This document shows positions 14,123 through 16,753 of a DNA stretch of 41,561 nt, piece after piece. Numbering within the stretch: position 1 is the stretch's first letter; every line of letters starts with the position of its first letter. Position numbers and translations under genes: made by a program. Below the pieces are notes generated by a model. It was given only the letters and a program-made list of their open reading frames with translations, was not told the DNA's origin and searched no databases. The DNA is from an uncultured Anaerolineae bacterium. Its GTDB lineage: Bacteria > Chloroflexota > Anaerolineae > Anaerolineales > Villigracilaceae. The DNA is taken from the NCBI GenBank assembly GCA_903822545.1, contig CAIJPN010000131.1, positions 1 to 41,561 on the forward strand, in the 5' to 3' direction.

Positions 14123-15490
14123 TTACTTGCGCTCAATTTTCAGCCCGGCAGCGCGCAGTTCGTCCAGCACATCCGCGTCGATACCGTGAATGCGCATTTC
14201 GATAAGCTGCTCCAGGGCCAGGTCTTCACCGAATTTCTGGCGCATTTCGCGGATGAAGCGCGGGGTGACGTGGTGAACGGTGATCTCGACCAGTTCGTCC
14301 ACATCCAGGTCGGTGAAACCCATTTCACGCAGTTCGCGGATGGTGCGCGGCTGGACGTTGGCAACACGCAGCTCGATGATTTCATCAGGGTCGAGCGAAT
14401 CGATCCCGGCTTCGCGCATCTCGTTCAGGTAGCGTGGGCTGATGTTGTGGTTCACCATTTCAACTACATCGTCGGCGTCCAGGTCGTCCAGGCCGAAATC
14501 GCGCAGAGATTTAATGAATTCCGGGGTTACATCGTGGCTGGCGAGTTCGACCAGTTCATCCACGTCCAGGTTTTGCATACCCAGATCGCGCAGCGCGGCG
14601 ATGAATTGCGGTGAGATATCGTGGTTGCCCAACTCAACCAGGTCATCCACATCAAAATCGTTCAGCCCCAACTGGTGCAACTCGTTGACAAATTTGGGCG
14701 AGATGCTGTGATCGCTCAATTCGATCAGGTCATCCACGTCCAGGTCTTTCAGCCCCAACTGGCGCATCTCTGAGACAAAGCGCGGCGAGACATCGTGGTC
14801 GCTCAATTCCACCAGGTCATCCACGCTCAGGTCGTCGAACCCCAGGCCGCGCAGTTCGGCAATCATTTTGGGCGAGACATCGTGGTTGGCAAGTTCCACC
14901 AGGTCATCCACATCCAGGTCTTTTAAGTTTTGCTCGGCCAGCTCCGAGATATAGCGCGGTGAAACATCGTGGTTGGCCAGTTCGATCAACTCGTCCACAT
15001 CCAGTTCATTCAGCCCGGCGGCGCGCAAATCGGTGATGAAGCGCGAGGAAATGTTATGCTGGCTGAGTTCAGCCAGTTCATCCACATCCAGGTCGCGGAT
15101 GCCCAGTTCGCGTAGTTCGCGCACATACATGGGGGTGACTTTCAGGATGCGCAGGTGAATCCATTCGCCCAGGCCGTCAGGCTCTACGCCAAGCGCGCGC
15201 ATTTCACGGATATATTCAGGCGTGACATTATGTACCTGCAACTCTTGCACATCGCTCAAGGTCAGGTGGCCGATCCCGGCTTCTTTTAGGGCTGCGGCCA
15301 AATCGCCAAATGATTTGGCCGCGCGCTTTTCTGATTGTGACTCCGGCATGGGGGCTGGCGCGGCTTCTGGTGTTTCTTCCGGGCTGTAGCTGGCATCCAG
15401 CGCCTTGAGCAGTTGTTCGGCATCTGCCGCCGTGATTTTGCCATTGGAAACCATATCCAGGATCATTAAACGGGCTTTATTTAGTTCCAT
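14123..15490 (-). CDS. Repeat solenoid protein with 13 units of 29 residues
   Basis: The 455-residue protein starts at the ATG at 15488-15490, with AAGGAG seven bases upstream. Residues about 4-30 (ARLMILDMVSNGKITAADAE...) are a short two-helix SHOCT-like module also seen at the end of the upstream protein. A Pro/Glu-rich linker follows (about 35-55). From about residue 75 to the end there are about 13 copies of a 29-residue unit with the pattern LVELxxHDVSPRFIxELRxLGLxDLDVDD. The units are acidic, helix-forming and have no signal peptide or membrane segment, so this is probably a cytoplasmic scaffold. Similar units occur in unannotated proteins of other phyla. It is the second gene of an operon, 44 bases after the DUF2089 gene. 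Confidence 0.85.
   Translation of the reverse strand: MELNKARLMILDMVSNGKITAADAEQLLKALDASYSPEETPEAAPAPMPESQSEKRAAKSFGDLAAALKEAGIGHLTLSDVQELQVHNVTPEYIREMRALGVEPDGLGEWIHLRILKVTPMYVRELRELGIRDLDVDELAELSQHNISSRFITDLRAAGLNELDVDELIELANHDVSPRYISELAEQNLKDLDVDDLVELANHDVSPKMIAELRGLGFDDLSVDDLVELSDHDVSPRFVSEMRQLGLKDLDVDDLIELSDHSISPKFVNELHQLGLNDFDVDDLVELGNHDISPQFIAALRDLGMQNLDVDELVELASHDVTPEFIKSLRDFGLDDLDADDVVEMVNHNISPRYLNEMREAGIDSLDPDEIIELRVANVQPRTIRELREMGFTDLDVDELVEITVHHVTPRFIREMRQKFGEDLALEQLIEMRIHGIDADVLDELRAAGLKIERK
14140..15270 (-). repeat. 87-bp coding tandem repeat
   Basis: The 29-residue units above are encoded by 87-bp repeats. The central copies (about 14590-15000) are the most alike at DNA level, for example a recurring CTGGACGTGGATGACCTG-like block, which suggests recent duplication or gene conversion there; the end copies are diverged. 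Confidence 0.8.
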
Positions 15491-15534
15491 CAGATTTCTC
15501 CTTAAAACTTTGAAGTGAAACTCCTGCAAAAATA

Positions 15535-15915
15535 TTACTTCCGCTTGCCCAATTCCGTCAGCAGGCGGGTGGCTTCGGGCACATCGATTTCGCCGCTGCC
15601 CAGCTTTTCCAAGATTTCCTGGCGCGTCAGCGCGGGCGGCTCGGCGCGGGCTGGCTCGAAGCCCATCTCGGCGATAACTTCATCTACCCGGCGGCGGATG
15701 GCCCAATACGATTCGCCGGTTTCGCGCTCCATCTCTTTCACATTGCCGCGATTGCGCACGAACACCTCCAGGAAGCGCAGGCTGTCACTGGAAAGCCGCG
15801 CAAAAGGGGAGAGCTCAAAACGGCCTACCACGCCTGTGCCGCAGGCCGAACAGGTCAACTGCGTCACCATCAGCGGGGCCGAACAACTGGGACAGGTTTG
15901 TGGGATAGATGGCAT
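15535..15915 (-). CDS. DUF2089 family zinc-ribbon / HTH protein
   Basis: The 126-residue protein has a four-Cys zinc ribbon (Cys8, Cys11, Cys22, Cys25), then the DUF2089 core: FELSPFARLSSDSLRFLEVFVRNRGNVKEMERETGESYWAIRRRVDEVIAEMGF. The GNVKEMERETGESYWAIRRRVDEV part reads as a helix-turn-helix, so DNA binding is likely. The last 30 residues (RQEILEKLGSGEIDVPEATRLLTEL) form the same helical module found at the N-terminus of the downstream solenoid protein. AAGGAG lies close to the ATG (spacer of three). The gene is driven by a good promoter at 15976-16004 overlapped by direct repeats, so autoregulation is a reasonable guess. The family has no known function that I can name. Confidence 0.9.
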   Translation of the reverse strand: MPSIPQTCPSCSAPLMVTQLTCSACGTGVVGRFELSPFARLSSDSLRFLEVFVRNRGNVKEMERETGESYWAIRRRVDEVIAEMGFEPARAEPPALTRQEILEKLGSGEIDVPEATRLLTELGKRK

Positions 15916-15975
15916 AGGCTCCTTTTACCAGCGTACCGGAGTCGAATATCTCTGGAGTCCGGGGCCGCTGCAAAT

Positions 15976-16004
15976 ATCTTAGCATTATTTTGATATTAAG
16001 TCAA
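15976..16004 (-). promoter_or_regulatory. Sigma-70-type promoter of the DUF2089 operon
   Basis: On the minus strand the -35 box TTGACT (16004-15999) and -10 box TAAGAT (15981-15976) are separated by exactly 17 bases. The predicted start leaves a leader of about 50 bases before the ATG at 15915. Confidence 0.7.
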
Positions 16005-16044
16005 TAAATTTGATGAAAAGTCAAAATATTTGATAAAGCTGCAA
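15989..16044. promoter_or_regulatory. Three 20-bp-phased direct repeats (candidate operator)
   Basis: Read on the plus strand: TTTGATATTAAGTCAA at 15989, TTTGATGAAAAGTCAA at 16009 and a weaker TTTGATAAAGCTGCAA at 16029. Each 16-base unit is followed by an A/T-rich spacer of four, giving an exact period of 20 bases, close to two helical turns. The first unit overlaps the -35 box of the operon promoter. Protein binding is inferred. Confidence 0.65.
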
Positions 16045-16132
16045 TATTACAAAAATATCCAGTCCTGCCGGGCGATAAAGCTGTTCTGTGGTATTAATTG
16101 GGGGCTTTTCACCCCGCCCCAAGGCTTTGCTT

Positions 16133-16753
16133 ATGCTCACATCCCTGTTCCTGCGCGGTCTCATCCTCGGTTTTTCCATCGCTGCCCCGGTTGGCCCCAT
16201 CGGCGTGCTCTGCATCCGACGCACCCTGGCGGAGGGTCGCCTGCGCGGCCTGCTCAGCGGCCTGGGCGCCGCCACCGCCGATGCCATCTACGGCAGCATC
16301 GCCGCTTTCGGGCTGGCGGCCATTTCCAGCCTGCTCATCCAGCAGCAAATGTGGATGCGCCTGCTCGGCGGCCTTTTCCTGCTCTATTTGGGAATCCAGA
16401 CCTTACGCTCACGCCCCGCCCAGACAGCAACAGAGACCCGCCCTGTGGGCCTTTTTGCCGCGTACCTGAGCACTTTCTTCCTGACAATGACCAACCCCAT
16501 GACCATTATTTCCTTCACCGCGGCCTTTGCCGGGTTAGGCCTGGCCCAGACTAGCGGGGACTTCGTCGGTGCGGCCAGCATGGTTGGCGGCGTTTTTCTC
16601 GGCTCCGCCGCCTGGTGGCTGATCTTGAGTCAGGGAGTGGGTCTATTCCGCGAGCAATTCACCCTGGCCGCCATGACCTGGGTCAACCGCATCTCCGGCG
16701 GCATCATCGTCATCTTTGGGCTGTTTGCCCTGGTATCCATTTTTACGAAATGA
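16133..16753 (+). CDS. LysE family amino-acid exporter
   Basis: The 206-residue inner-membrane protein has six hydrophobic segments. It carries the family marks LRGLILGFSIAAPVGPIGVLCIRRTLAEGR at the N-terminus and FFLTMTNPMTIISFTAAFAGLG in the middle. LysE/RhtB proteins export amino acids or related metabolites in exchange for protons; the substrate cannot be predicted. The ATG at 16133 is chosen because the first helix begins there and the length is usual; a GTG at 16088 would add 15 unsupported residues. The only ribosome signal is a weak AAGG. It is followed by a 94-bp inverted repeat. Confidence 0.9.
   Translation: MLTSLFLRGLILGFSIAAPVGPIGVLCIRRTLAEGRLRGLLSGLGAATADAIYGSIAAFGLAAISSLLIQQQMWMRLLGGLFLLYLGIQTLRSRPAQTATETRPVGLFAAYLSTFFLTMTNPMTIISFTAAFAGLGLAQTSGDFVGAASMVGGVFLGSAAWWLILSQGVGLFREQFTLAAMTWVNRISGGIIVIFGLFALVSIFTK

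Follow-up and report, generated by a model that had tools for sequence, protein, structure and literature searches.

The window, a 41,561-nucleotide contig of an uncultured Anaerolineae bacterium, carries on its minus strand a two-gene operon whose first gene encodes a DUF2089 protein (Pfam family PF09862, PF22747). The original prediction described this product as a zinc-ribbon/HTH protein, and both profiles indeed score above their curated Pfam cut-offs in the window protein (zinc ribbon, 44.8 bits against 27.6; HTH, 59.2 bits against 33.4). A C-terminal match to the SHOCT-like profile PF22746 reaches 15.7 bits, under the cut-off of 27, and helices are predicted there at residues 98 to 107 and 112 to 124. 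The second gene, for which an open reading frame was listed from a TTG at 15529, was given the ATG start in Table 1; its repeats follow a pattern like SPxFIxELRxLGLxDLDVDDLVEL. A single promoter was called within positions 15850 to 16200, on the minus strand, with a 17-bp spacer and a TG before the -10, and both the -35 and the extended -10 are near consensus. The leader that follows it (15916 to 15969) is about 53 nt long, compared with 10 to 16 nt in most close orthologues, where the -10 lies immediately upstream of the start codon.

TABLE 1 Features of the DUF2089 operon and its upstream region (window coordinates)
Feature	Position	Strand	Remarks
Second gene, SHOCT-like domain and ~30-residue repeats	14123..15490	-	Start taken at ATG 15490
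DUF2089 gene, 126 aa	15535..15915	-	Zinc ribbon and HTH profile matches; gene served by the called promoter
-10 hexamer TAAGAT, preceded by TG	15976..15981	-	
Degraded proximal copy CAAAATAATGC, left half-site	15982..15992	-	In the -35/-10 spacer; aligned copy in orthologues
-35 hexamer TTGACT	15999..16004	-	
Middle palindrome CAAATTTATTG	16002..16012	-	Centre ~-37 from predicted start; overlaps -35
Distal palindrome CAAATATTTTG	16022..16032	-	Centre ~-57 from predicted start
Possible trace of a fourth copy TTGTAATATTG	16042..16052	-	20 bp further upstream; weak, read by eye

Upstream of the DUF2089 gene, TTTGATNNNNAGTCAA occurs exactly at 15989 to 16004 and again at 16009 to 16024, a step of 20 bp, and a third copy with three mismatches follows at 16029 to 16044. 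Direct repeats at this period had been predicted, with the first copy over the -35 box, and both claims hold: the minus-strand TTGACT (16004 to 15999) lies inside the first copy, and these two are the only exact copies (12 fixed bases) in the 5,526,637-base genome, which has 23 matches at one mismatch or fewer. At up to three mismatches the window holds 29 matches against a shuffled mean of 28.45, so the third copy by itself carries no weight, and it is the two exact copies and their step that count.

A whole-genome search located the DUF2089 protein family in 141 of 152 same-family genomes. Twenty-three places, the window's included, are orthologues (65 to 100% identical), and the next best match, at 48%, belongs to a paralogue family. 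We rejected the idea that the 16-mer is itself the conserved unit because none of the 22 other orthologues has an exact copy upstream, the window alone doing so; the best match has one mismatch in 4 of them, two in 2, three in 13 and four in 3. What is repeated upstream of these 22 orthologues, at steps of about 20 bp, is a palindrome with the best form CAAAATATTTTG. Judged from these alignments, the conserved unit is thus CAAA-N3/4-TTTG. The motif TTTGAT-N4-AGTCAA does repeat, as first proposed, but its register was off: it spans the half-sites of two adjacent palindromes, and the expectation of finding it upstream of orthologues succeeds only when it is re-framed as CAAA-N3/4-TTTG.

The spacing of the half-sites points the same way. 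The gap from CAA to TTG peaks at 5 and then at 6, with 37 occurrences at 5 (2.2 expected) across the 23 orthologues and 41 (3.3 expected) in a second clade, whose 23 named loci include Caldilineaceae and an Ardenticatenaceae. For the linker from TTG to CAA, the peaks are at 8 to 9 among the orthologues and at 7, 9 and 10 among the second-clade loci; both sets show an extra peak at 1. These counts make the palindrome the tighter unit and the original motif a linker flanked by half-sites. At one mismatch or fewer, CAAA-N3-5-TTTG occurs 66 times upstream of the 22 orthologues (shuffled, 12.0; sd, 3.4) and 62 times in the second clade (shuffled, 17.2; sd, 3.6), figures that, like those for phasing below, are non-independent draws since the loci inside each clade are related. 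Attention was first drawn to the motif by the orthologues, and its final form was fixed after both clades had been viewed. Enrichment and step counts leave out L053, L054, L105 and L052 plus L055 to L075, the last group being identical to L023 to L044 in protein and in 150 bp of upstream sequence.

A step of 19 to 21 bp is present in 18 of the 22 orthologues (shuffled mean, 0.09; maximum, 2) and in 17 of the 23 second-clade loci. The majority of orthologues in Anaerolineae and Caldilineaceae have between two and four palindromes, spaced by whole helical turns of about 20, 31, 41 and 51 bp; in the second clade, successive spacings of 30 to 32, 41 to 43 and 48 to 52 bp are also seen, alongside a few of 12 bp and a single one of 56 bp. 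For a period of 10 to 11 bp, phase coherence is 0.85 in the orthologues and 0.79 in the second clade, and in each clade none of 2000 random placements was as high. What weighs most is that the spacing varies but keeps to whole turns. Comparison between genomes therefore bears out the phased array predicted over the DUF2089 promoter, both in its step and in its 10- to 11-bp period, as a repeated operator-like element set at whole helical turns.

These palindromes overlap DUF2089's own promoter, and the overlap is conserved in orthologues. Positions were measured from a promoter of the form TTGAC-16/18-xAxxxT, which could be called at 53 of the 54 loci; a looser earlier rule had misplaced the promoters of L023 and L024 at another A/T stretch, and the counts given next use the stricter one. 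Across the 53 loci, palindromes pile up near -19, -38/-40, -57/-60 and -77. A palindrome covers the -35 in 39 of 53 loci (200 shifted controls: mean, 7.7; maximum, 14) and 30 of the 53 have one between the -35 and the -10 (mean of 6.8 and maximum of 13 in the same number of shifted controls). In L080 to L088, which form part of the second clade, the -35 is placed differently relative to the palindromes, whose mutual spacing is kept. At three Caldilineaceae loci (L095, L098 and L101), palindromes lie near -19, -38, -50 and -70; one pair is separated by just 12 bp, a distance at which both probably cannot be filled at once.

A region that is AT-rich within a GC-rich genome, and phased at whole turns, could also be read as a set of A/T tracts that bend the DNA, or serve as an UP element, and have no protein dedicated to them. 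We regard this as very unlikely, since the CAA and TTG ends of the palindrome are, with the -35, among the near-invariant columns in an alignment of 30 upstream regions, so that C and G positions rank with the best conserved; the CAA-N5-TTG spacing is sharply preferred; and a strict form of the array is confined to one gene.

This strict array pattern, allowing up to three mismatches, was run on the same 152 genomes and gave 19 matches in 17 genomes, with none in a backward-read control. It was found at the orthologue promoter in 16 of the 23 orthologue-bearing genomes, compared with a match in 1 of the 129 others. Sixteen of the 19 matches are at orthologue promoters and another reads one of those in reverse; a second match in G092 falls at a contig end that shares 90% identity with the promoter contig over 323 bp, and the match in G129, which lacks an orthologue, falls within an ORF. 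The seven misses include the window's own genome, because its copies deviate from the strict pattern. With a looser double-array pattern, this promoter alone matches exactly in that genome and one other place (C5) matches with one mismatch; at up to two mismatches there are 69 strand matches against 44 in the backward control, mostly chance. The 19- to 21-bp step was absent from the 8 paralogues examined and from 17 distant DUF2089 loci. Given that the strict array is confined to the DUF2089 promoter save for the one ORF-internal match, we rejected a multi-promoter regulon. The window's own genome also encodes a DUF2089 paralogue (L022; G000:C76:2604-2957), 42% identical and without the array, and the ORF directly after it is one that we take to be Toastrack-like.

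Comparative genomics cannot name the binder, and the conservation of an array at a gene's own promoter is compatible with recognition by a different factor. The own genome in all likelihood has further HTH proteins, one of which might act on the array as an unlinked regulator with DUF2089 merely its target. We think this unlikely: across 152 genomes the strict array stands at the orthologue promoter and, in one case, inside an ORF, and a factor dedicated to a single promoter is most simply encoded there. Three genomes with an SYP recognition helix, discussed below, further argue against it, since their only copy of a different palindrome, at one mismatch or fewer, stands at the DUF2089 promoter.

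The genes around the array also bear on its target. A divergent LysE-type gene starts at about 16133, and the array, lying between it and the DUF2089 gene, might serve the LysE-type gene. The chance of this appears negligible: tblastn with the window LysE protein matched in 0 of 70 named loci and 0 of 8 paralogue loci, and the sole called promoter points at DUF2089. We therefore rejected the LysE-type gene as the target. The second gene of the operon was matched in 53 of the 70 named loci, a count that takes any match at E 1e-4 within the locus and is to be read beside weak matches in 2 of the 8 paralogue loci; all three second genes scanned have the SHOCT-like domain. With the second gene kept and LysE absent, the array goes with the DUF2089 operon.

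Sequence comparison gives good support to an array that is conserved, in helical phase, placed over the promoter and linked to the DUF2089 gene. We consider it probable that the 20-bp-phased repeats are operators of the first gene in the operon, which encodes its HTH protein, and that DUF2089 dimers bind them cooperatively on one face of the helix and repress their own operon. A DUF2089 dimer, with its zinc ribbon, HTH and SHOCT-like tail, would occupy each CAAA-N3/4-TTTG palindrome. Because the centres lie whole turns apart, adjacent dimers would be on one DNA face and able to touch, so that cooperative binding is to be expected. The -35 and spacer sites, a layout that would be expected for repression by occlusion, would then block RNA polymerase and produce negative autoregulation of both genes. 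The second protein may relieve this repression, a role suggested by the SHOCT-like domain common to both products. From this arrangement we infer which protein binds, that it represses, that its binding is cooperative and what the second gene does. The window itself has two good palindromes (near -57 and -37), a spacer half-site whose copy, CAAAATAATGC, has two mismatches to CAAAN4TTG, and no more than a hint of a fourth; repression here may therefore depend on the first two.

The main rival to this reading keeps DUF2089 as the binder and makes it an activator, with upstream dimers contacting RNA polymerase in positive autoregulation. Sites near -57/-60 and -77 recur and could work from upstream, and 23 of the 53 loci have no spacer site at one mismatch or fewer. 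We nevertheless give it a rather small chance, as the -35 and spacer sites stand where they would obstruct polymerase, and an activator seems unneeded at a promoter whose -35 and extended -10 are near consensus.

The proposed autorepression by phased dimers can be set beside several known systems. An AlphaFold model of the window DUF2089 protein, built with 52 sequences taken from the window and 60 usable proteins (mean pLDDT, 86.1), places helices at residues 43 to 54, 59 to 66 and 70 to 83, the last beginning at Y70-W71. Structure comparison found the HTH similar to DosR, VraR, LiaR and sigma region 4 at Z 6 to 7, which may be only a common HTH arrangement; the best Foldseek E value was 0.59, and the best for solved structures searched by sequence was 0.47. 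NarL/LuxR-type regulators such as DosR, VraR and LiaR bind palindromes as dimers. In the best rows the predicted HTH resembles theirs at Z 6.5 to 7.0 over 49 to 53 residues, a middling fold match with 8 to 16% identity, but DUF2089 has no receiver domain. MraZ offers a further comparison: it is encoded by the first gene of its operon and regulates its own promoter through an array of phased repeats, with a fold and a repeat unit unrelated to those described here.

The closest mechanistic parallel is NrdR, a zinc-ribbon repressor that needs paired neighbouring boxes in helical phase: spacers of 14 to 17 and 24 to 27 bp bind, and others do so about two orders of magnitude worse (PMC12051234). 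NrdR, however, targets ribonucleotide reductase genes and has an ATP-cone, whereas here the proposed target of an HTH protein is its own operon. The flanking genes (DUF2089 with a SHOCT-like gene, and LysE) and the domains, which include no ATP-cone match in Pfam, led us to set the NrdR system aside. The accessible part of a PSP/Toastrack survey describes DUF2089 proteins with the same zinc ribbon, HTH and SHOCT-like architecture, proposes that their operons pass membrane signals to transcription, and gives no operator for them (PMC11237479); the second gene of the window's operon encodes a SHOCT-like repeat protein. The literature searched for DUF2089 yielded no published operator. The array gives a predicted DNA target, at base-level detail, to a domain of unknown function present in 141 of 152 family genomes, and its role becomes directly testable. 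The natural series of promoters, with the same operators about 20, 31, 41 and 51 bp apart, is a ready-made test of helix-phase dependence.

The array may also be linked to residue W71 of the recognition helix. Among loci with W71, 42 of 54 were scored as carrying the array, against 0 of 21 without it (19 SYP rows and 2 with other letters); 12 of the 54 lack it, including L109, which has no site at all. L105, for which only 66 bp of upstream sequence was available, was scored as lacking the array. This count leaves out 22 copies (L052 and L055 to L075), L113 and L118 (truncated or without a start), and L117 and L119 (frame longer than 170 aa). The tree has at least four changes of W, with one usable independent pair on well-supported branches, too few to make the correlation more than suggestive.

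In one small class with an SYP recognition helix, L112, L115 and L117 share a perfect 17-bp palindrome, CTTTACAAATTGTAAAG, 20 to 60 bp upstream of DUF2089, and in each of these three genomes it is single at one mismatch or fewer. It was absent at L116, L155 and L164 and about half present at L119. More tentatively, DUF2089 could be a family of one-component autoregulators whose target depends on the recognition helix: proteins with W71 would recognise phased arrays of CAAA-N3/4-TTTG, those with SYP would recognise different palindromes, CTTTACAAATTGTAAAG serving one small class, and a co-transcribed SHOCT-like partner would relieve repression. If true, this specificity switch and partner relief would amount to a sensing circuit without a two-component system. 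Within one orthologue clade, L038 to L044, CAATATATTTG replaces CAAAATATTTTG in most members, and W71 is followed by V or I.
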